Below are positions 1 to 21,170 of a stretch of 21,170 nucleotides of DNA, piece by piece. Both the position numbers and the translations under genes were made by a program. How positions within the stretch are numbered: the stretch's first letter is position 1; each line of letters begins with the position of its first letter. Below the pieces are notes generated by a model. It was not told where the DNA came from. It worked only from the letters and a program-made list of their open reading frames with translations, and made no database searches. Source of the DNA: a virus; the IMG/VR virus record IMGVR_UViG_3300027759_000501, positions 1 through 21,170 of that record; one strand, written 5' to 3'.

Positions 1-11
1 TGCTCAGTCAT
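1..11 (-). CDS. Start of a further early gene, cut by the window edge
   Basis: An ATG at 11-9 overlaps the TGA stop (10-8) of the preceding gene in an ATGA junction, the same coupling seen at most junctions in this operon. Only about three codons (Met-Thr-Glu) lie inside the window, so nothing can be said about function. The call rests on the junction pattern alone. Confidence 0.35.
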
Positions 12-12520: not shown

Positions 12521-12904
12521 TTAAACGGAGTAAGTTTTCGCACCGTCAATTTTGCAGGAGATCGAGAAGTCGACCGTGCCTTCAAATGAAATCGATTCAT
12601 TCATGGCACCGATCACTGCGTTGAAGCCGATGGTCGCGGCGCTTGGCAAAGTGATGATGAATGCTTTGCTTAACCCGGTGTTGGCTCGGAGGTAGTCCTG
12701 ACCCGTCGAGGCGTTGTCAAACTTACCTGTTAGTTCAAGTGTACCGTTGTCAATGAGTCCGGCCACAAATTCCTTCGCGGTGGAGTCGTTGGTGGTGATA
12801 TCGATGAATGGCACCTCGGCTCCAGAGAGCGTGATGTCATTGATCCCTGTGATAGCCACGGCGTTGACCGAGACTGTGGTGCCGAATGCTTTGCTTTTAG
12901 CCAT
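12521..12904 (-). CDS. Major tail tube protein
   Basis: 127 residues, matching the short tail-tube type of HK97-like siphoviruses. Beta-rich throughout: FGTTVSVNAVAITGINDITLSG, VPFIDITTNDSTAKEFVAGLIDNGTLELTGKF, GTVDFSISCKIDG. The segment FIDITTNDS...KEFVAGLIDNGTLE is the recurrent tail-tube signature. It stacks in rings along the tape measure. No separate Ig-like domain. A 44-base leader with a GUGA-loop hairpin precedes it (12913-12932), shared with the major capsid gene. Followed two bases later by the chaperone. Confidence 0.88.
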   Translation of the reverse strand: MAKSKAFGTTVSVNAVAITGINDITLSGAEVPFIDITTNDSTAKEFVAGLIDNGTLELTGKFDNASTGQDYLRANTGLSKAFIITLPSAATIGFNAVIGAMNESISFEGTVDFSISCKIDGAKTYSV

Positions 12905-12912
12905 GTTTTTGA

Positions 12913-12932
12913 TGTCTGCTTCACAGCAGTCA
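12913..12932 (-). promoter_or_regulatory. Leader hairpin (GUGA loop) before the major tail gene
   Basis: In the mRNA the stem CUGCU/AGCAG closes a GUGA tetraloop. Below it an A-A mismatch is followed by G-C and U-A pairs. The 18-mer GACTGCTGTGAAGCAGAC ends 9 bases before the ATG, with an A-rich tract upstream. The spacer ATCAAAAAC has no Shine-Dalgarno. The same 18-mer and spacing occur before the major capsid gene. Confidence 0.7.
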
Positions 12933-12948
12933 GTTTTTTATTGTTAGT

Positions 12949-13335
12949 TTAGTTGGTGAGTGAGTGACCTCGGTATTCCACGAGTTCGCCGTAGAGCTTC
13001 GTGTCGGTTTCGTAGGTGGAGTTGGACGATGAGAATGATAGTGAGGTGCTGCTTGAGCCGGGGAGTGTGATGCCCTCGATGTCGGTCTTGAGTGCCGCCG
13101 TGATTGCGATCACCGACACCTTGGTCTTCGCCCATATAGAAAACTGGATGAGCGGAAATGATAGTGACCTGTTGCCGTCGTTAGTATTTTCGGACAGAGT
13201 GCTGACCGTCTGCGCGACGATGTAGGGTGCCACCGCGTCACCGTCGGCGATGTCCCAGAAGAACCGATTGCCGATGAGCGGCGAGAGTGTGGCACCTGCT
13301 ACCACCGCATCATAGATGTCTGATTGGTAGCTCAT
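12949..13335 (-). CDS. Tail terminator / tail completion protein (DUF3168-like)
   Basis: 128 residues. The start SDIYDAVVAGATLSPLIGNRFFWDIADGDAVAPYIVAQTVS is typical of the DUF3168 family (gpU/gp17-like), which caps the tail tube and joins it to the head. Then a strand-rich body (LSFPLIQFSIWAKTKVSVIAI) and an end rich in Ser. The ATG overlaps the gp10-like gene stop as ATGA. Between its stop and the tail gene lies the 44-base leader carrying the hairpin. Confidence 0.83.
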   Translation of the reverse strand: MSYQSDIYDAVVAGATLSPLIGNRFFWDIADGDAVAPYIVAQTVSTLSENTNDGNRSLSFPLIQFSIWAKTKVSVIAITAALKTDIEGITLPGSSSTSLSFSSSNSTYETDTKLYGELVEYRGHSLTN

Positions 13336-13808
13336 GAGGATTTCGCCAGGATGCGGGTGAGGTAGAGGTCGAGCTGTGCCGCCATGGCACCAGCGACCTT
13401 CTCTTGCGTGGCATCGATCGCCGGGCGTATGTATGGTTGTGCAGGTGTCTTGCTTGTACCAAACTCAATTAGGTGAGAATAATTTGTTGGCACAGCTTCC
13501 ATGCTATACTTTTTGCCAGTCTTCTTGTTTGTCCTTTTGACTATTTTTCTATACCCTTTGAGCGGTCCGACTTTTGCTGTCTTGCTGCCAGTTTTACCCG
13601 TGATGATGAGCGTGATCGATTTAGTCAGTGCGCCTGAGTCTTTGCTTCTGGCCGCGAAACTCTTGGCAGATGTGCGAATGAGGATCGCGCCGGCGCGAAG
13701 CACTGATAGCTCGGCACCTTTGCGTAGCTTCTTGGGTAGTGCATCAATCTCCCGCAAGAGGTCGTTAAACTTCTTTTTCTCGATGGCGAGTGATTGTAGG
13801 GTAGCCAT
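13332..13808 (-). CDS. HK97 gp10-like connector/tail protein
   Basis: 158 residues, basic. The pattern LREIDALPKKLRKGAELSVLRAGAILIRTSAKSFAARS (about 18-55), later SHLIEFGTSKTPAQPYIRPAIDA (110-133) and a final helix is the HK97 gp10 family signature (EFGT...PAQPFLRPA). The family acts at the head-tail junction, often as a minor tail or neck protein. The ATG shares one base with the upstream stop. The middle (KTGSKTAKVGPLKGYRKIVKRTNKKTGKK) is Lys-rich, longer than in many relatives. Confidence 0.87.
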   Translation of the reverse strand: MATLQSLAIEKKKFNDLLREIDALPKKLRKGAELSVLRAGAILIRTSAKSFAARSKDSGALTKSITLIITGKTGSKTAKVGPLKGYRKIVKRTNKKTGKKYSMEAVPTNYSHLIEFGTSKTPAQPYIRPAIDATQEKVAGAMAAQLDLYLTRILAKSS

Positions 13809-14137
13809 TAGGAGAGCGATTGATAGGTCACGGTGTCGAGGAGGAGAGACGCCTGGCGGCCTTCCTCGGTGATGCCGGTGATGTTGAAAAATTTGCTGCG
13901 GTAGAGCAGTCGGTAGCCGGTGCTGGTGATGGTACGGTAGCGGATGCGAAATTGCTGGACCTCTGTGGCGCGGTCGGCGTCGGCGATGTCTACCTCGTTG
14001 GGTTTAGCTTTTGCGGTGACCAGCTCGGCCCACACCGTGGCGTGGTCAGACCATGTCTCGACTCTCGATCCGGTAGCGTCCTTGGAAAAGACGCGCACTT
14101 GGATGACGACGCGGCGGTCGAGCTTGCCCGGGTTCAT
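13808..14137 (-). CDS. Head closure protein (SPP1 gp16 / head-tail joining family)
   Basis: 109 residues from the ATG at 14137. MNPGKLDRRVVIQVRVFSKDATGSRVETWSDHATVWAELV is the standard opening of the phage head-tail joining family (beta barrel, head stopper). Then FRIRYRTITSTGYRLLYRSKFFNITGI, the equally typical middle, and a short end. A start three codons earlier (14146) is possible but the ATGA overlap at 14137-14134 decides the choice. Closes the connector after packaging. Fits between adaptor and gp10-like genes. Confidence 0.87.
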   Translation of the reverse strand: MNPGKLDRRVVIQVRVFSKDATGSRVETWSDHATVWAELVTAKAKPNEVDIADADRATEVQQFRIRYRTITSTGYRLLYRSKFFNITGITEEGRQASLLLDTVTYQSLS

Positions 14138-14769
14138 ACAAACCAACCTCCTATTTTCTGCTGCTCGATGAGTGCCTTGAGTGAGTAGGGTAGCTCGGCG
14201 GTGATGCTACCGATGACCACTGGCACACGGTTTTCGTATAGGTGAGCGGTGAGCAACTGGACCGCGTGGCGTTGTCCTGGCGTGACGGCCGACATGACTG
14301 TCTGGCCAGCGGTAAATGTGATCTGGATTGCGTCGACCCGGTCCTCGACCGTTGGCAGGTCGATGACAAACTGCACCATGCCTGGCAGCGAGCCGGTGAT
14401 GACGCGGTAGTCTGCCGATGAGATTGTCGTCAGTACATTGGATCCACTCGGGTAGTACTTGACGTGCGTCACCGAGGTCAGCGGCGACCTGTACAGGTTG
14501 ACGGTGTCGAGAAACTCTGGACCAGTCAGTCCGACCCATGAGTTAGCACTGACTCGGTGGTGACTGTGCATGGCCACACGGCCAGTGACGTTGTCGACGT
14601 ACTCACGGGCCACGCCGATGAGCGCCTCGATGTACGTTAAATCGTCCTCGGAATCCACCCGCAGATGCGCCGATGCCTGCTCGACAGAGATTGGCTCAGT
14701 GGTCGGCGGCGTGATCAGCGTATAGAACGGCCGCTGTGTGCGCGGCGGGGTATAGAACGGGTCAGACAT
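14134..14769 (-). CDS. Head-tail adaptor (gp6-like connector)
   Basis: 211 residues. After a Pro-rich start, PISVEQASAHLRVDSEDDLTYIEALIGVAREYVDNVTGR (about 27-64) is the gp6-like connector signature (four-helix adaptor bound under the portal). Then a beta-rich insert and ITFTAGQ, then GQRHAVQLLTAHLYENRVPV, the closing helix. Longer than the minimal HK97 gp6 family because of the beta part (DUF-type extension seen in many prophages). ATG overlaps the preceding stop by eight bases. The next gene begins at its stop. Confidence 0.86.
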   Translation of the reverse strand: MSDPFYTPPRTQRPFYTLITPPTTEPISVEQASAHLRVDSEDDLTYIEALIGVAREYVDNVTGRVAMHSHHRVSANSWVGLTGPEFLDTVNLYRSPLTSVTHVKYYPSGSNVLTTISSADYRVITGSLPGMVQFVIDLPTVEDRVDAIQITFTAGQTVMSAVTPGQRHAVQLLTAHLYENRVPVVIGSITAELPYSLKALIEQQKIGGWFV

Positions 14770-14959
14770 TTAGCGAGGCGTTTTCTGTTTTTGGCTTTGC
14801 CGCAGCGGTTTCGCGCTGTGCTTTCGCCGGGGTAATGAATGCAACAGCGTCGCCGTCTGCCACCGCGATTGCGGCGGCGAGGTGGTCCATGTCATGCACT
14901 GAGCCTTGCTCACGGTGGATGCCCTGGACACATACGGTTCTGACGAATTGCACTAGCAT
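14762..14959 (-). CDS. Small head-region protein (65 aa)
   Basis: A 65-residue protein between major capsid and adaptor. The start MLVQFVRTVCVQGIHREQGSVHDMDHLAAAIAVADGDAVAF follows a pattern common to small phage head-region proteins (a beta hairpin, then a loop, helix and a GDA-type turn). The C-terminus is Ala/Lys rich and probably disordered. No function established. The longer frame to 14998 would include the hairpin region; the ATG at 14959 fits better. Confidence 0.7.
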   Translation of the reverse strand: MLVQFVRTVCVQGIHREQGSVHDMDHLAAAIAVADGDAVAFITPAKAQRETAAAKPKTENASLNV

Positions 14960-14972
14960 ATAGGAAAGTGAA

Positions 14973-15000
14973 AGGTGGACCGGTGTTACCCGATCCACCT
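14973..15000 (-). terminator. Strong 11-bp hairpin after the major capsid gene
   Basis: In the mRNA the arms pair AGGUGGA with UCCACCU, continue with one U-G wobble and three G-C pairs, and close a six-base loop (GUAACA). It begins 12 bases after the capsid stop (15013-15015). The tract after it is UUUCACUUUCC rather than a clean U-run, so it is a weak or partial terminator, or a 3'-end stabiliser for capsid mRNA. It would form less well in plus-strand RNA, where the wobble becomes a C-A mismatch, which supports a leftward role. It ends 13 bases before the next ATG. Confidence 0.5.
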
Positions 15001-15012
15001 AGTAGGTGTTAA

Positions 15013-16314
15013 TTAAGCACCGAGCGCATCAAGTTGCGCCGCAAACGATTTCGGACGGACAACACCGCCGTCGTAGTAGGTCGAGGCGACGAGCGAATAG
15101 ATGCCGCTGATCGCGTTGGTCTTGTCGCGGACCATCTCGAGGGAAACACCACCCCAGTAACCTACGACATAGTCAGCGAAGTTGCCGAAGAAGATCGCCG
15201 ATGCGAGCGAGCTGGATCCTTTGGTAAGGGTCCGGCTGACGGCATTGGTGAACAATGGTGTGTAACCATTAAGCAATCCGCTGTCGCCCAGTATGAACCG
15301 GTCGCCATAGGTTGCATTGATGGCCGTGCTTTTGAGCTTACCGCGAATTTGTCCATTGGACACATAGTGCAAGTTGCCGAGCAATGCGTTTGCAGTGTCT
15401 ACCGCTGTCTCAAGCGCAACGAGTCCTGCGACCGTTGGTGCGAGTCCGTTAGTGCCACCTGCATAGGATCCAATGCCCGAGGTGCCAGCGATGCCATTGG
15501 CCTCGTTGGTGCCGGAGCCGTGGAAGAATGCCGCTTCTTGTGTGGCACCCATTTGCGTAGCGAGGTGACCGCGAAGGATCGTCTCAATGGCAACTGAGGA
15601 TTGCAGAAGCAAACGCTCGCTGATGTCGATGTAGGCTGGCAAACGCTTAGGCGTAAGCTGAAGCATAGAGGTCGTCGGAGATACTTCGTCGGAGGTTCCG
15701 TTTTCTGCTTTTCCTGCGGCGGCGGTACCAGCGATGAGGCGTGGCAAGTCGAGGTTGCCAGTGAGTCCCTCAAGCACCGTGGCACCTGCTAGACGCATAA
15801 CCGACGCGTTGAAGAAGTCGTCGAGCAATCCACGCTTTTCAACTTGGATCGTGTTGCCGCCTTCACCACCGGAGGATCCGGTCGCTGTCATGTCGCGGTT
15901 TTCACGGCGGACTAGGAGACGCGGCAGAAGGATGCCACCGGCGCTGATGCCTGCGGAACGAGCTTCTGTTTCGCCTTCGCGGATCATCTCGGCCTCGATG
16001 CCGTCGATGACTGTGGCACCGCCCTTTGCGGAGCGGTAGAGGTGGTTCAAGACCTTGTTAAAGTCGAACGTGTTGACATCGCGTTGTTCACCGGTATTCA
16101 ACACCGGAGTGCTGCGTGTTGCGCCTTCGCGTTGCATTTGGCGGACCTCTGCGTCGATCGATGCAGTGAGTCCGTCGATGTCACCTTCCATGGCGCGGAT
16201 CTTCGTTTCCTCGTCAGGTGTTAGTGAGCGGTTTTGAGTCCCGACGAAGTCGAGGATTTCGCGTACTTGCTTCATCAGCGAGCCGCGCTTTTCTTGCAGT
16301 TCTTTTAGTTTCAT
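15013..16314 (-). CDS. Major capsid protein (HK97 fold) with N-terminal scaffold domain
   Basis: 433 residues. Residues 1-70 are a charged coiled coil (LKELQEKRGSLMKQVREILDF; DEETKIRAMEGDIDGLTASIDAEVRQMQ), the delta domain that acts as internal scaffold and is removed by the protease encoded next door. The body then shows capsid hallmarks: EARSAGISAGGILLPRLL, LPRLIAGTAAAGKAENGTSDEVSPTTSMLQLTPKRLPAYIDISERLL, and GSGTNEANGIAG. The start at 16314 follows the hairpin leader; an upstream extension to 16383 is shadow. Several Lys and Asn could form HK97-type cross-links but that cannot be decided here. Confidence 0.93.
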   Translation of the reverse strand: MKLKELQEKRGSLMKQVREILDFVGTQNRSLTPDEETKIRAMEGDIDGLTASIDAEVRQMQREGATRSTPVLNTGEQRDVNTFDFNKVLNHLYRSAKGGATVIDGIEAEMIREGETEARSAGISAGGILLPRLLVRRENRDMTATGSSGGEGGNTIQVEKRGLLDDFFNASVMRLAGATVLEGLTGNLDLPRLIAGTAAAGKAENGTSDEVSPTTSMLQLTPKRLPAYIDISERLLLQSSVAIETILRGHLATQMGATQEAAFFHGSGTNEANGIAGTSGIGSYAGGTNGLAPTVAGLVALETAVDTANALLGNLHYVSNGQIRGKLKSTAINATYGDRFILGDSGLLNGYTPLFTNAVSRTLTKGSSSLASAIFFGNFADYVVGYWGGVSLEMVRDKTNAISGIYSLVASTYYDGGVVRPKSFAAQLDALGA

Positions 16315-16322
16315 GTGGTGGG

Positions 16323-16342
16323 CGTCTGCTTCACAGCAGTCG
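16323..16342 (-). promoter_or_regulatory. Leader hairpin (GUGA loop) before the major capsid gene
   Basis: mRNA stem CUGCU/AGCAG with GUGA loop, A-A mismatch, then G-C and C-G pairs below. Preceded by an A-rich tract just after the protease stop (CTAACAAAAC). The 18-mer is identical to that before the major tail gene and ends the same 9 bases before ATG. The spacer GCCCACCAC lacks any Shine-Dalgarno. The lower stem differs from the tail copy by a pair change (C-G for U-A). Confidence 0.7.
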
Positions 16343-16355
16343 TATTTTTGTTTTG

Positions 16356-17030
16356 TTAGACGGCAGGCTTGCTGATGCCCCACCGTCGCTGCCAGTGACT
16401 TAGGGAGTGGTTTTCAAGAGGTGCCGGGGTCGGCGTTTCCTCTAGTTGAAAATCTTTGATGAGAGTGGTGATCGAGCGGACATCGACCTCGGTGTCCTCG
16501 TAGGCCGGGTAGGTCACCGGCGAGACATCGTAGAGGCGCGATACCTTGGTGATGGTGCGCTCAAAGACCGTGACGCCGTTTTTGTCCATGGTTTCAACCC
16601 AGCTTTGTCCGTCCTTTGAGACGGTGAAACTGAACGAGCTTTGATCGATGTCACCGCGCCGAAGAGAGACGAGAAGGTCGCGACCGACTTGCGTGTCCGG
16701 TGCTTCAAACATGTAGCTCAGACCGATGTCATCGATGCCGAGCGTGAGAGTTCCTTCACCATTTTTTGACCGAGCCAGAATCAAATCTGCCTCATGGTTG
16801 AAGAGTGCGCGGACATCATCTAGCAGCACATCGTCGAATGCACCTGGTGCGATCGTTTCGTAGAATTGCCGCTCGGGATCTCCGAGGTTGCCTGAGCGAG
16901 AATTGAATTTCGCTGCGTAGCCGAAGATGATGTTGCTCTGCTCGCTGTCACCGATGGCGCGTAGCTCGATGGGTGCCGTGAGTCGGCGTGACTCGCGGCC
17001 TCCGAGAGTGATGGTTTGGAGAGTCTTCAT
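16356..17030 (-). CDS. Prohead maturation protease (HK97 U35 family)
   Basis: 224 residues. Serine protease with herpes-assemblin-like fold that trims the capsid scaffold domain. Visible: IIFGYAAKFNSRSGNL, then ETIAPGAFDDVL, then the catalytic His in RALFNHEADLILARS (His about 78), then DQSSFSFTVSKDGQSW (Ser about 132), all standard for the family. The start at 17030 overlaps the portal stop as ATGA; a longer frame to 17384 is Arg-rich shadow. The C-terminal ~40 residues are Pro/Glu rich and likely autocleaved. Ends 41 bases before the capsid start, leaving the leader hairpin. Confidence 0.9.
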   Translation of the reverse strand: MKTLQTITLGGRESRRLTAPIELRAIGDSEQSNIIFGYAAKFNSRSGNLGDPERQFYETIAPGAFDDVLLDDVRALFNHEADLILARSKNGEGTLTLGIDDIGLSYMFEAPDTQVGRDLLVSLRRGDIDQSSFSFTVSKDGQSWVETMDKNGVTVFERTITKVSRLYDVSPVTYPAYEDTEVDVRSITTLIKDFQLEETPTPAPLENHSLSHWQRRWGISKPAV

Positions 17031-18337
17031 GGTGCGGCGGGTGCGGGTTCGGTGGCCTTCGCTTGTGCGGCTCCACCGGTGTTGTTGAATGGCAGCGCGT
17101 AGTCGTCGCCGCCGTCTGTTGGTGCGATGCGGCGTTCGTCGATGCGCTCGCGGATGTCGTTGACCGAGTAGACGCCGATGCCGCGCATCGTCTGGAAGTA
17201 GGCCGCCTTGGATGCGAGGTCGGCATTCGCCAGGGCGTCGCGGTCGAAGCGGAAATAGAATCCCGACTGCTGCTCTTGAGTGGTAAGCAATGTCATGGCC
17301 ATCGACTGCTCCCACGCGACGAGGTGCGGATCCAAGCAGTTGTTCAAGAATCCGAGCGTCTGCTGCTCGATGCCGGTCCCCCATGTGGTCGAGGCCGTAG
17401 AGTCGCCGACCATGAAGGGCGGGATGCCGTAGAACCGTGCGATCTCCTGCAACTCGAAGCGGCGGGATCCGAGAAACTCGGCGTCCACCATGCTCATGCC
17501 GTTGGTCTGTTTGAAATCAAAACCACCGTGCATGATCGGGACGCGACCAGCATTTTTTGCACCGGCGGTGTTGCGGTCCCACTCGGTCCGAGCGTCTTCC
17601 ATCTGCTTTGATGAAAGCGCCTGTGGTGCGACTAGGTAGCCCGGGAAGTGGGTGCCTTCGCGCATGAGTTTGCCAGCGGCCTCGGTCTGTGCCAGGCAGG
17701 TGCCAATCGACTCGCGCAGCATGCGGATCGGTGAGACGCCCTCGATGCCGTCGCGGCTGATGCCTCGCACATGTAGGATGTCGTGGCGGGTGAGAATGTC
17801 CTTGGTGCCTTTGACCTCATAGGAAATATAGCACTCGCCATTTGGACGCATCACCTTGCGCGGTGTTACATCGTTGGGGTTGAGCCACTGGATCGCCCGT
17901 GGCTCACCGAACGGGTCACGGTAGACCCGAGCGTAGCCATTGCCGCCGAGGCCCTTCGATACTTCCATGAGTTGGCGTAGCTCGAATGTAGTGTGCAGCT
18001 CGGACGGGATGCCACCGATGCACCGAATGCCTGGGTGATCGGTGACTTCAAGCGGTCCGTCGGGTGTGTCGCGGTATAGATAAATCGGGAGCTTCGCGAT
18101 CATGTCGGCCAGCAGTCGGACGCAGGCCGTAACAGCGGCGACGTTCAGCGCAGTGTTCTCAGTAACAACTGCACCGGACGCCGCCGGAGTGCTGATAAGG
18201 TGCAGGATGCCGTTTTGTAAGTCATTGCTAGAACGCGACTCACGTTGGTTTTTGCCACGAAATGACAAGCCAGTCATCGCGCTGATATTCGCGAATGATA
18301 GTACTCCCCTGCTCTTATTAAGTATGTTTCGCAACAT
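17027..18337 (-). CDS. Portal protein (HK97 family)
   Basis: 436 residues. Recognisable blocks: NTALNVAAVTACVRLLADMIAKLPIYLYRD (about 60-90), QLMEVSKGLGGNGYARVYRD, IQWLNPNDVTPRK, ILHVRGISRDGIEGVSPIRMLRESIG, and the stem region FGIPPFMVG-like ARFYGIPPFMVGDSTASTTWGTGIEQQTLGFLNNCLDP. It forms the dodecameric portal where the head-to-tail connector and terminase dock. The C-terminus is Ala/Pro-rich. The first ATG coincides with a hairpin; Met21 (18277) is an alternative start. The gene's first 80 bases are AT-rich. The divergent lipoprotein gene starts 64 bases upstream. Confidence 0.91.
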   Translation of the reverse strand: MLRNILNKSRGVLSFANISAMTGLSFRGKNQRESRSSNDLQNGILHLISTPAASGAVVTENTALNVAAVTACVRLLADMIAKLPIYLYRDTPDGPLEVTDHPGIRCIGGIPSELHTTFELRQLMEVSKGLGGNGYARVYRDPFGEPRAIQWLNPNDVTPRKVMRPNGECYISYEVKGTKDILTRHDILHVRGISRDGIEGVSPIRMLRESIGTCLAQTEAAGKLMREGTHFPGYLVAPQALSSKQMEDARTEWDRNTAGAKNAGRVPIMHGGFDFKQTNGMSMVDAEFLGSRRFELQEIARFYGIPPFMVGDSTASTTWGTGIEQQTLGFLNNCLDPHLVAWEQSMAMTLLTTQEQQSGFYFRFDRDALANADLASKAAYFQTMRGIGVYSVNDIRERIDERRIAPTDGGDDYALPFNNTGGAAQAKATEPAPAAP

Positions 18338-18341
18338 TCTT
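18320..18341 (-). promoter_or_regulatory. Start-site hairpin (GCGA loop) at the portal gene
   Basis: mRNA stem AUGUU/AACAU with GCGA loop, an A-A mismatch and then three more pairs (AAG with CUU). The 5' arm begins with the portal AUG itself, so folding would hide the start. The core is nearly identical to that at terS (one base differs, in the loop, which stays GNRA). It resembles the capsid/tail leaders in layout. Confidence 0.6.
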
Positions 18342-18388
18342 GGACGCTATGCTGTATTAAAATTATAGACTTGTCAAGCTGATAGCAT

Positions 18389-18394
18389 TATAAT
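18389..18394 (+). promoter_or_regulatory. -10 box TATAAT for the lipoprotein gene
   Basis: A perfect TATAAT lies 7 bases before the ATG of the plus-strand gene in AT-rich DNA. The nearest TTGTCA (18371-18376) is only 12 bases away, too close for a standard -35; the 17-base position holds TAGACT. The spacing implies a start of transcription at or next to the ATG, so a leaderless mRNA is possible. Confidence 0.45.
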
Positions 18395-18401
18395 CACAGG
18401 T

Positions 18402-18788
18402 ATGAAAAAATTATTGGCACTATATTTCCTAGTGGTCGGGTGTTCGACAACTCCGAGAAACCCCGAGAAATATGTAGAATGGGAAAACAACTCGTGCTTG
18501 CCCACTGCGATCACCATGCGTTATGGGTTGAGAAACTCGACGAAGTGGTCCGAGGTGTTGCTGTACCAATACACATCGTTGAAGACTGGCGAAGTGAAAG
18601 GTCACGCCGTCTGTGCATACATTTACCCGGTCGGGTCCAATAAACTCTGGGTGTATGACTACGAAGGAAGCACCAGAATCAAAGCATACATCAATGACCC
18701 GATGATGATTGCCCAGCTTGCTGAGGTTGCCCGTGGTCGCCTACACCACCAAGTGTCTGAGGCTGAGTATTTAAAAGACAAAGAATGA
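18402..18788 (+). CDS. Lipoprotein with Cys-His-Asp papain-like motif (moron)
   Basis: 128 residues, the only plus-strand gene in the structural region, placed between portal and terminase. Residues 1-14 form a lipoprotein signal (MKKLLALYFLVVGC; lipobox VVGC, Cys14). The mature part has NNSCLPTAITMRYGLR (Cys32), GHAVCAYIYPVGS (His68) and VYDYEG (Asp86), the order and spacing of a papain-like (C39/transglutaminase-like) cysteine peptidase fold, here short. Surface lipoproteins in such spots are often lysogenic-conversion genes, for example superinfection exclusion or envelope modification; that role is inference. Its 3' end overlaps terL by 18 bases convergently, which suggests old rather than recent insertion. 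Confidence 0.8.
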   Translation: MKKLLALYFLVVGCSTTPRNPEKYVEWENNSCLPTAITMRYGLRNSTKWSEVLLYQYTSLKTGEVKGHAVCAYIYPVGSNKLWVYDYEGSTRIKAYINDPMMIAQLAEVARGRLHHQVSEAEYLKDKE

Positions 18789-20468
18789 TCCCGCGACATC
18801 TTCCGGTCTTGTCATTGCTCTACCTATAGCCATGAGCGCTGCGACAACTGGGTCAATTTTGTTTTGCGCGGTGTCCTTGTTTGGGTACACGTTGTCCTTG
18901 CAGTCGTAGCGGCCGGTGACGTTACCGATCGCCCAGGCTAGCACTGGGTCGCCATCGTGGATGATGCGGCCGCTGCGGATGAGTGCGTCGAGTTGCTTCA
19001 TCGGCTCGGACATGGTCAGCACCGTGTTCCTATACTCGACCACCGGAATGCCTTCGCGTTGTAGCGCTGGGAAAACTCCCCATGCTCGGTTTGGGTCGCT
19101 CGGCATTTCAAGTACCTGGTATTCGCGGCACAGGTCGATCGCGTCGTGTTTGAAATTCTCAAGGTCGGTGACGTCTTCACCGGCGGACTCGATGTGTCCT
19201 TTGATCTGCCAGTTCCGGTAGTGCTGGTTCTCGGGTAGATCGAGCGTGGTTGCTGGCAGGTAGTACTTGCCGAATAGTACATAGCGCTTATCTGGCAGGC
19301 AGAACAACTGCATGAGCGCCACAAGGTCGTGTTTGCTGGCTAGGTCACCGGCTAGGTAGCATGGGTATTCTTTGTAGTCCTCGCGGGTGCCAGCAATGCC
19401 GAGCTTGTTCCAGTCGGACACGTTGAAGAATCCATCCTTGGCGCTGACCCACTGGTTAAGGTATTTTGTTTTGAATGCTGATTGCTTGCTAGCATTTTGC
19501 TGTGCCACTTTCAGCTCGGCCATGATCCGGTCGGCGTTGATTGATATACCGAAATTTGGGTTGGCTTTGACCAGCGCCGCTTCGCAGTCCCACCTATCTC
19601 CGTCATCGATGGTCCAGATGATGGCAAAGCAGTTCTCATCCTCGAACCCGCCGGTGTTCTCTAGCAGTCGCTCGCAGGATTTCCAATCCTCGCGGCATGG
19701 TCCCGCAGTGTCGGCACCTGCGGTCGAGATCACCAGGCTGAGTGGTTGGTCACGAGCGCCCATGCCCGTCTCCATCGTGTCGACGAGATCGCTGGTTTTG
19801 TGTTCGTGATACTCGTCGATGATCGCGCAGTGCGGCGACGATCCATCACCCGGCTTACCGATCACCGGAATGAATTTTGAATTGTCTCGCTCGATGATCA
19901 GTGACTGCGCGTTGATCGTAATGCCTAGCCCGGGTGCAAGTTGCGGGTGACTGATCGCCATTTGCCTCGCCGGTCCGAATACCTCCCACGCCTGCTTCTC
20001 GGATGTAGCACCAGAGTATACTTCAGATCCATGCTCGCCGTCCTTGGCTAGCATGTACATGCCGATGCCAGCGCCGATGATCGACTTGCCATTTTTACGC
20101 GGCACATAGATGCGAGCTTTCTGATACCTGCGCTTGCCATTAGACTTCTTGACCCACCCGAATATAGAGCATAGCACAAACTGCTGCCACGGTTCTAGCT
20201 TGATCGTTTGAGGTAGCCGGGTGATCGGGTCCGGCTTTGCCCACTTACCTTTGACGTGTGGCAGTAGTTCGATAAACCTACAGACATGCTCCGCCTTGTC
20301 CTTATTGTAGATGTAGGGAAATGACTTGGTGATCGATGACGCGGTGTCGCGCACATGCCGCTCGCATGCTAGTCTCACCCATTTGCATGCGGTAACTTTT
20401 CCTTTCAGCACATCGGCGACGTACTTCGCCGCCGCCCGACTGTGCGGGTGCTTGACTACTGGTCGCAC
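18771..20468 (-). CDS. terL: Terminase large subunit
   Basis: 565 residues of the HK97-type terminase family (ATPase plus nuclease), which packages DNA through the portal. Walker A is PRKNGKS (123-129), Walker B with catalytic Glu is AIIDEYHEH (Asp218, Glu219), coupling segment STAG (248-251), and nuclease Asp in YLAGDLASKHD (Asp375), with a second in EMPSDPNRAWG (Asp458) and NKIDPVVAALMA (Asp539). All key residues are present. It starts with GTG at 20468, overlapping the small gene before it by 13 bases. Its last 18 bases overlap the convergent lipoprotein gene. Confidence 0.94.
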   Translation of the reverse strand: MRPVVKHPHSRAAAKYVADVLKGKVTACKWVRLACERHVRDTASSITKSFPYIYNKDKAEHVCRFIELLPHVKGKWAKPDPITRLPQTIKLEPWQQFVLCSIFGWVKKSNGKRRYQKARIYVPRKNGKSIIGAGIGMYMLAKDGEHGSEVYSGATSEKQAWEVFGPARQMAISHPQLAPGLGITINAQSLIIERDNSKFIPVIGKPGDGSSPHCAIIDEYHEHKTSDLVDTMETGMGARDQPLSLVISTAGADTAGPCREDWKSCERLLENTGGFEDENCFAIIWTIDDGDRWDCEAALVKANPNFGISINADRIMAELKVAQQNASKQSAFKTKYLNQWVSAKDGFFNVSDWNKLGIAGTREDYKEYPCYLAGDLASKHDLVALMQLFCLPDKRYVLFGKYYLPATTLDLPENQHYRNWQIKGHIESAGEDVTDLENFKHDAIDLCREYQVLEMPSDPNRAWGVFPALQREGIPVVEYRNTVLTMSEPMKQLDALIRSGRIIHDGDPVLAWAIGNVTGRYDCKDNVYPNKDTAQNKIDPVVAALMAIGRAMTRPEDVAGSFFVF

Positions 20469-20665
20469 TGGGGATCGGCACAGTCGCCGTGGTTCTCGGT
20501 TTGGAATCCACCGTCACCCAGGTACCGGTGACCGTCGACGATTTGTCCTGGTCGAATCGGCTCGGTAGGTTCGCCGGGTTTGACAACGCCGGCCGCGAAG
20601 ATGCGCTCGTAAGCTGAGCGGAATTTCTCGCCGTCGACCGCCCGAGGTTTCGACCCTTTGCTCAT
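20456..20665 (-). CDS. Small unknown protein between terminase subunits (69 aa)
   Basis: A 69-residue protein starting MSKGSKPRAVDGEKFRSAYERIF. The opening and the later GQIVDGHRYLGDGGF look like a small conserved phage protein, without a known function. The C-terminus has CADPQCDQ, a C-x(4)-C pair. The start overlaps the terS stop (ATGA) and its stop lies inside the terL start region (13-base overlap). A helper of terminase assembly is possible from position only. Confidence 0.7.
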   Translation of the reverse strand: MSKGSKPRAVDGEKFRSAYERIFAAGVVKPGEPTEPIRPGQIVDGHRYLGDGGFQTENHGDCADPQCDQ

Positions 20666-21057
20666 AAATCGGCAAATGGGTTGGTCGCGGCCTTCTGCAC
20701 CACCGTGACTTTGTTTCGACTCGCCGGGGTCAGTCCGTAGGCCGCGCTGATCCGCAGGTAGGTCAGCGCTGCGGTGGTCTGGATAGTGAAGCTACCGTTC
20801 TTTACTTCACCGCGCTCCGTTATGCTCTTCAGTCCGTTCTGCTCGATGTCGAGTTGAGCATCGTGGCCGTGCTGCGCGGCCATCGCCAGGTTGATCATGT
20901 TGCGCCGGTCGAGCTTGGTCAGCACCACACCAGCCGCAGTGAGTTCGCGGGTCACGTCGTTCCACGTCTCAAGCGCCACGCCGACCATGTCAGTCGGTGG
21001 CGGTCCCATGTCGCCCGAGTAAATAGGCGCGGTCGTTTTAATTTTCCTAACTCGCAT
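20662..21057 (-). CDS. terS: Terminase small subunit (P27-like)
   Basis: 131 residues. The segment MVGVALETWNDVTRELTAAGVVLTKLDRRNMINLAMAAQHGHDAQLDIEQNG (about 24-75), then LTYLRISAAYGLTPASRNKVTV, is the P27 terminase small-subunit pattern (helical, ending in the G-L-T-P-x-S-R loop). It recognises the packaging site and loads terL. It is the first gene of the visible late operon. Its ATG is at the 3' base of a GUGA hairpin. The C-terminal NPFADL is a common family ending. Confidence 0.88.
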   Translation of the reverse strand: MRVRKIKTTAPIYSGDMGPPPTDMVGVALETWNDVTRELTAAGVVLTKLDRRNMINLAMAAQHGHDAQLDIEQNGLKSITERGEVKNGSFTIQTTAALTYLRISAAYGLTPASRNKVTVVQKAATNPFADL

Positions 21058-21072
21058 GTTTCACAACATTCG
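21053..21072 (-). promoter_or_regulatory. Start-site hairpin (GUGA loop) at terS
   Basis: mRNA stem AUGUU/AACAU with GUGA loop, an A-G mismatch and a two-base CG/CG lower stem. The terS AUG uses the last two bases of the 3' arm and the mismatched G. Shares a 16-base core (GAATGTTGYGAAACAT) with the portal start. Confidence 0.6.
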
Positions 21073-21170
21073 TCAGGCACACCAATTGCAACAAAAGTGC
21101 ATTTGGTCAAGTTTTATGTTATGTTGGTCCTACGCGAAAATTTTTTTTTTGATCAAAACACGTTTCTGCG
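21058..21170 (-). promoter_or_regulatory. Gene-free leader upstream of terS
   Basis: 113 bases to the window edge without a gene. In the leftward sense it holds a palindromic TTTTGATCAAAA next to a run of ten A then TTTT (21137-21156), likely bent DNA, and later TTGACC (21110-21105) without a convincing -10 box. It probably carries the late promoter or packaging region, but no box is assigned. Confidence 0.4.

Follow-up and report, generated by a model that had tools for sequence, protein, structure and literature searches.

In the RNA phages MS2 and Qbeta a phage protein switches translation through an operator located at a start codon, a short hairpin in which an A below the loop is left unpaired. 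Other small hairpins (lambda nut boxB, HK022 put, ops) are promoter-proximal and found in a single orientation; boxB combines a stem of 5 bp with a loop of the GNRA type, which in the lambda-type nut site is a purine pentaloop accompanied by an upstream boxA and an N-like protein. Tailed phages are usually described as controlling their late genes through transcription (activators, antitermination). Here we describe a hairpin family from a double-stranded DNA (dsDNA) phage represented by the 21,170-base IMG/VR virus record IMGVR_UViG_3300027759_000501 (the whole stretch is called the window). Its members consist of 2–3 base pairs, an A-mismatch, a 5-bp stem and a GNGA loop, and the four hairpins of the window, at the genes for the terminase small subunit (terS), portal, major capsid and tail tube proteins, belong to it. 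In our judgement there is an even chance that all four are versions of a single cis-acting RNA hairpin, which would serve as a shared translational operator of virion-gene mRNAs.

Like the MS2/Qbeta operator, the hairpin of the window phage carries a mismatch A and stands at a start codon. It differs in having a GNGA loop, in marking several virion genes, in belonging to dsDNA rather than RNA phages and in that its reader protein is only postulated. From boxB, put and ops it is set apart by the GNGA tetraloop of nearly all copies, by the A-mismatch with its lower stem and by copies at internal gene starts without a visible promoter. In the accessible part of PMC3014915, the gp43 operators of T4 and RB69 and the gp32 operator of T4 are mRNA structures near the ribosome site that are bound by protein, with translation repressed, and the loop letters of the gp43 operator are conserved. 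These, too, are mRNA structures of dsDNA phages near the ribosome site, as ours is by its sequence; they are, however, autogenous (polymerase, single-strand DNA binding protein), whereas here genes for packaging, head and tail have one motif in common, and this in two groups of phages.

Phage mRNA operators are thus known as a kind. To the extent of our searches, a motif that genes for head, tail and packaging share across two phage groups is undescribed. An earlier sequence-only reading of the window knew of no phage element distributed like its four hairpins, and this is supported: at gathering score Rfam gave no match in the window or in the related loci L176, L139, L249 and L105 (searched by itself, the tail site gave four matches below threshold, each of them on the opposite strand), and the literature searched, which covered few subscription journals, held no description of such a hairpin element. 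The available main text of a paper on Baltic Flavobacterium phages (PMC7077304) does not mention promoter, hairpin, terminator, transcription or intergenic, and the available main texts of two comparative structured-RNA surveys (PMC8040213, PMC2864571), which likewise report phage-associated RNAs found by covariation, do not mention capsid, terminase or portal (protein).

Four hairpins in the window

All four hairpins and their genes lie on the minus strand and are given here in the mRNA sense. The terS leader hairpin (21052..21073) reads ACGA-AUGUU-GUGA-AACAU-GCGA, with the start codon at 21057 within the 3' arm and a predicted outer CCUGAC/GUUAGG helix around it. In the portal leader hairpin (18320..18341; AAGA-AUGUU-GCGA-AACAU-ACUU) the 5' arm opens with the start codon (18337) as its first triplet. 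The hairpins of the capsid leader (16322..16343; ACGA-CUGCU-GUGA-AGCAG-ACGC) and of the tail-tube leader (12912..12933; CUGA-CUGCU-GUGA-AGCAG-ACAU) are followed after 11 nt by the start codons at 16314 and 12904, respectively. Hence all four overlap a start codon or sit at most 11 nt from one. The genes were identified as terS (20662..21057; Pfam Terminase_4, 5e-13), portal (17027..18337; Phage_portal, 4e-83), major capsid (15013..16314; Phage_capsid, 5e-24) and tail tube (12521..12904; PHROGs phrog_158 major tail protein, 6e-14, with Phage_TTP_12 under the Pfam cut-off). The sequence and these matches agree with the sequence-only reading in place, strand and gene. An intrinsic terminator was rejected on inspection of the sequence, none of the four hairpins being followed by a U-run, and so was a minimal upstream open reading frame (ORF; AUG UUG UGA within the hairpin), several variants having no AUG.

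A GNRA loop closed by five Watson-Crick pairs is found at six places of the window (five on the coding strand, one on the other), and among these only the four reported sites have a GYGA loop. The coding strand was then subjected to 1000 dinucleotide shuffles. In these, the GYGA version occurred on average 0.22 times per shuffle with a maximum of 2, four never being reached; the GNGA version occurred 0.38 times (at least four in 2/1000) and the GNRA version 0.77 times (at least four in 11/1000; five observed). A strict descriptor (A mismatch, lower pair and GNGA loop) finds the four sites and no others in the window, all on the coding strand, which bears out the earlier view that only four starts are marked. 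In 17 phage records (550,952 bases), several of them close kin, it matches 27 places, as compared with 5 in the reversed-sequence control; 26 of the 27 precede a terS, portal, capsid, tail-tube or gp66-like tail-region gene and the remaining one (L445:12609) looks like a chance match. None of the 27 is in the five cultured phages among these records. A chance origin of the window hairpins is ruled out by the shuffles and by the relatives that keep the hairpin.

Relatives of the window

Relatives were gathered by TerL, portal and capsid searches and by a DNA pattern scan, and some of them retain the hairpin with compensatory stem changes. For example, L007 (same record as L104) has AUGUU-GCGA-AACAU at the portal gene, a site missed by the strict descriptor because its mismatch is C-U, and CUGUU-GAGA-AACAG at both capsid and tail-tube genes. 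L105 has AUGUC-GUGA-GACAU (portal), CUGCU-GUGA-AGCAG (capsid) and CUGUU-GAGA-AACAG (tail); since one genome holds both stem/loop forms, one reader could accept both. At the portal gene L008, too, has another stem (UUGCU-GGGA-AGCAA), whereas the portal hairpin of the window is kept in L087, L140, L166, L182, L202 and L290, of which L140 and L166 have a capsid hairpin (CUGUU-GAGA-AACAG) as well. Hairpins with a CUGUU stem were found 26 nt ahead of the start codon of a P22-type coat gene (L176) and 18 nt ahead of that of a 438-aa gene without family assignment (L139). The element is thus wider than the sequence-only reading could see, extending to more portal families, to a P22-type coat gene and to another phage group. 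The capsid and tail hairpins are identical to each other within the window and within L007 and different in L105, a pattern that may reflect mosaic exchange or concerted change.

Flavobacterial phages

The other group came to light in AT-rich contigs, in which, among the AATGTTGNGAAACAT matches listed, the hairpin stands just ahead of a 392-aa gene with terL on one side and the protease/capsid genes on the other. Many of the listed matches lie inside long open frames and look like chance; of the 148 contexts listed from the AATGTTGNGAAACAT and DNA pattern scans together, 40 lie outside long frames and are followed by a sense start, and another 7 outside long frames are followed by an antisense one. 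The cultured relatives of these contigs are Flavobacterium phages (Lillamyvirus and kin), in which the homologue of the 392-aa gene is annotated as portal protein, and the homologue from L348 matches Phage_portal. A search with the portal protein of L203, from a hairpin-bearing phage, yielded 75 loci, of which 66 entered the leader count, some with start positions extrapolated from partial matches. Of 57 distinct leaders, 48 have a perfect 5-bp hairpin with a 4- or 5-nt loop and nine do not (L310, L319, L348, L352, L355, L360, L362, L368 and L369), L348, L352 and L355 showing a degenerate form. Pairing is kept in a variety of stems: AUGUU/AACAU, ACGCU/AGCGU, ACGAU/AUCGU, AUGCU/AGCGU, AUGCU/AGCAU and AUAUU/AAUAU. 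No hairpin was found in the portal leaders of the cultured phages Harreka, Arctus, JQ and phi19:1.

A second hairpin-bearing gene (L389, L401, L413, L429) is a distant relative, at 23–33% identity, of Lillamyvirus gp66 downstream of the large tail genes; in G410 and G411 the hairpin of the gp66-like gene is ACGUU-GUGA-AACGU. The gp66-like leader of L455 (6468-6497) has the stem ACGUA/UACGU with a GUGAU pentaloop near the start codon and no clear -7 box. In Lillamyvirus and G409 (L375, 20106-20127, and the gp66-like leader of L447) the degenerate form can be read as CU-[AAC]-GUU...AACAG, a CUGUU stem interrupted by a bulge of three bases.

Some single loci are of interest in their own right. 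The portal hairpin of L319 (4760-4860) and L310 (2870-2960) is gone, apparently through a short deletion, and in L319 the -7 box is followed almost at once by the start codon, resembling a leaderless mRNA. In L206 (3461-3570), L406 (6425-6530) and L217 (6836-6964) a short ORF apparently starts about 10 nt after the hairpin, ahead of the next long gene, and possibly encodes a leader peptide. In the related contigs L234 and L239 AATGTTGNGAAACAT comes right after a tRNA-like 3' end, ahead of a small ORF, which may be chance.

Covariation and folding

For covariation, 31 hand-chosen sites (29 distinct) were aligned without gaps, the Lillamyvirus row, which breaks two pairs, being retained. Pairing was found in 90.5% of the cells, a percentage biased upward by the picking of the rows as hairpins, and dropped to 28–49% in slid controls. 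Double-sided changes occur in all eight pairs (52 cells versus 13.9 in shuffles, with 0/500 as high), and the covariation score was likewise reached by none of 500 shuffles. Of these chosen rows, 30/31 have a GNGA loop and 30/31 have A as the 5' base of the mismatch, the A being retained on the 5' side only; apart from the pentaloop GUGAU in L308, L311, L313, L331 and L455, the loops are GNGA tetraloops. The 17 flavobacterial rows alone (Lillamyvirus left out) give the same result in weaker form: double changes in four pairs (5/500 shuffles as high) and a score reached by 0/500 shuffles.

A covariance model (R1) built from 17 flavobacterial leaders, none of them from the window's group, ranked the four sites of the window 1–4, with E values of 8e-6 (terS), 1e-4 (portal) and 0.41 for both capsid and tail, where only the inner 12 positions matched; the next match had 4.9. 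On 32 other stretches R1 gave 21 matches at E up to 1, namely 16 flavobacterial or window-group terS/portal sites (E up to 0.024), the Lillamyvirus site (E 0.22) and four that look like chance; at this threshold it misses the CUGYU capsid/tail sites, the portals of L105, L007 and L008, L176 and L139. By these comparisons a conserved RNA-type structure is well supported.

The predicted folding energies are -11.5 kcal/mol (z -3.4) for the terS leader, -8.3 kcal/mol (z -3.9; 0/200 shuffles as good) for the capsid leader, -7.2 kcal/mol (z -2.5) for the tail-tube leader and -4.3 kcal/mol (z only -1.0) for the portal leader. Four perfect flavobacterial leaders reach only -2.7 to -6.7 kcal/mol. Leaders that fold weakly and are nevertheless conserved favour recognition over plain stability.

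Orientation and promoters

Behind TATATTTG, a Bacteroidota -7 box, the hairpin pattern was found in 85 viral-contig stretches and its reverse complement in none; many of the 85 are close kin, the loci examined comprising 71 distinct contexts, and 2 of these 71 (L384, L395) are unpaired at the outer end. Dyad symmetry and a promoter-proximal place at terS, portal and flavobacterial portal genes would fit an inverted repeat bound as DNA by a repressor or activator, but the absence of the flipped orientation, the conserved and asymmetric loop, the pairs that change on both sides together and the A confined to the 5' side of the mismatch make such an operator highly improbable. The sequence-only reading had favoured RNA over DNA, naming a palindrome kept in both orientations without loop bias as what would point to a DNA operator or chance; the preference stands, the hairpin being one-directional and its loop kept while the stems change.

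In all 48 flavobacterial portal leaders with a perfect hairpin the stem starts 9–14 nt after a TAnnTTTG box. The available parts of PMC6847099 and PMC9723704 place the Bacteroidota promoter box at T-12 to G-5 and at -12 to -5, respectively, by which the stem would start near +6 to +11. At 8 of 11 terS/portal sites of the window's group a TTGAC-like box starts 39–41 nt ahead of the stem, which would then be at about +5; none of the nine capsid, tail, P22-coat and L139 sites has such a box at this distance. For the window, sequence and spacing give a putative terS promoter (21072..21110, minus strand; TTGACC starting 41 nt ahead of the stem) and a putative portal promoter (18340..18377, minus strand; TTGACA starting 40 nt ahead), the latter behind an antisense gene. 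This gene (18402-18788, plus strand), located between terL and portal, encodes 128 aa with an N-terminus that looks lipoprotein-like by eye and gave no PHROGs or Pfam match; it may explain why the portal gene needs its own promoter. Where a promoter is recognizable, the hairpin is thus located at the predicted mRNA 5' end, and most other sites lie just ahead of or over a start codon.

A 5'-terminal position is what would be expected if the hairpin merely shielded the 5' end of late transcripts from decay, whether these are primary (as at terS and portal) or processed (as at capsid and tail), no dedicated factor being involved, and both the flavobacterial and the window-group spacings speak for this. 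A plain stabilizer does not, however, need a fixed GNGA loop, an A-mismatch and kept stem letters, it should fold more strongly than the -2.7 to -5 kcal/mol of several sites, and at the nine sites just mentioned no promoter box lies at that distance. We therefore consider shielding alone unlikely. The promoter-proximal place and the single orientation, together with the likeness of the 5-bp stem and GNRA-type loop to boxB, would also suit an antitermination or pause site of the nut, put or ops type loading a factor onto RNA polymerase, and such loading could conceivably take place at more than one point along a long operon. The capsid and tail copies are, however, inside the operon directly ahead of start codons, and no member of the NusG family was matched in 17 records (16 with perfect and one with degenerate hairpin, some being fragments), though a host protein such as a paralogue could serve. 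Such a co-transcriptional signal is in our view rather improbable.

Distance to the start codon

In 29 of the 48 flavobacterial leaders the stem ends 7 nt ahead of the start codon. This distance, the 11 nt at the window's capsid and tail genes and the lack of Shine-Dalgarno sites in Bacteroidetes (PMC6847099, in the part available) would be compatible with a hairpin that brings the 30S subunit or an initiation factor into position in hosts without Shine-Dalgarno pairing. We hold this to be very doubtful, however: the start codon is within the 5' arm at window-type portals and within the 3' arm at terS, and no general host use is seen in Verrucomicrobiota, where AATGTTGNGAAACAT occurs at 7 places in 6 of 387 genomes, near the estimated chance of about 10. 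By the same count a host-wide element in Verrucomicrobiota was rejected; among the seven contexts, inspected without family search, the one in L304 possibly overlaps a host ORF at its start. According to the accessible part of PMC6847099, pairing near start codons is generally reduced in Flavobacterium johnsoniae, the more so in highly translated genes. In contrast to this trend, the hairpin occupies the initiation region of these leaders.

A shared operator and what weighs against it

The proposed translational operator would work as follows. A putative RNA-binding factor, encoded by phage or host and either repressor or activator, would recognize the GNGA loop and the mismatch A and grip the hairpin at the mRNA 5' end or in the ribosome landing region; gripping would set the translation, and with it the stability, of several late mRNAs together. 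Recognition by a protein is indicated because loop and mismatch are conserved and stem letters changeable, a translational operator is favored because several copies fold weakly and lie in the initiation region, which in Flavobacterium mRNAs tends to be unpaired, and coordination is suggested by their use at several virion genes. The structure is well supported, and the function is what we infer from it.

Several results weigh against this proposal. Judged by energy alone, no more than 4 of the 10 leaders that were folded had a z score below -2, and folding of the Lillamyvirus leader does not yield the motif. In flavobacterial leaders the distance from hairpin to promoter box (9–14 nt) is tighter than that from hairpin to start codon (6–36 nt), and in L399, L406, L261, L403 and L206 the hairpin lies 72–87 nt ahead of the gene start and is therefore too distant for direct occlusion (the genes are portal above the Pfam cut-off in L406 and L261 and below it in L399; those of L403 and L206 had no match in the family search). 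The nine of 57 portal leaders without a perfect hairpin include that of the cultured Lillamyvirus. The strict descriptor has no match in 38 capsid-relative loci (326,753 bases; control 2), and in 74 TerL-relative loci (L009-L082; 957,709 bases) it has 8 versus 9 in the control, so that the hairpin is not general to such phages. The missing NusG family also counts here, as does the failure to find a reader among shared proteins: comparison by blastp of the ORFs of seven window-group and six flavobacterial records gave about six kinds of shared protein, and the only one followed, DUF3127, was rejected, its distribution not tracking the hairpin. Of the records with a hairpin, six have it (the hairpin being degenerate in one of them) and others lack it, and it turned up as well in two cultured phages that carry no hairpin and in one host genome.

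Nine capsid relatives with 63–67% identity from near the N-terminus (L093-L096, L098-L100, L102, L103) have leaders without hairpin. The sequence-only reading had regarded homologous phages without the hairpin as evidence for a DNA operator or chance; many such homologues indeed exist, but what the missing hairpin shows is patchy presence, not chance. When bacterial genomes were scanned with a capsid profile, two loci were confirmed; they belong to Verrucomicrobia metagenome-assembled genomes and neither has the hairpin. The window's host can therefore only be inferred. The hosts of the two phage groups appear to belong to different phyla.

Implications

Going further, dsDNA phages of Bacteroidota and Verrucomicrobiota might share a post-transcriptional regulon in which one factor reads the GNGA hairpin and times or balances virion assembly via translation, a possibility that we put forward tentatively. 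The single RNA-binding factor would then be either phage-borne or conserved in both host phyla, with portal, capsid, tail and packaging mRNAs as targets, and this too we regard as possible rather than probable. The hairpin is a ready bait for finding the factor, and Flavobacterium offers a cultivable setting, with Lillamyvirus carrying a degenerate copy and metagenomic relatives the perfect hairpin. If the proposal is true, a covarying hairpin on several virion mRNAs would make the translation of assembly genes a regulated step.

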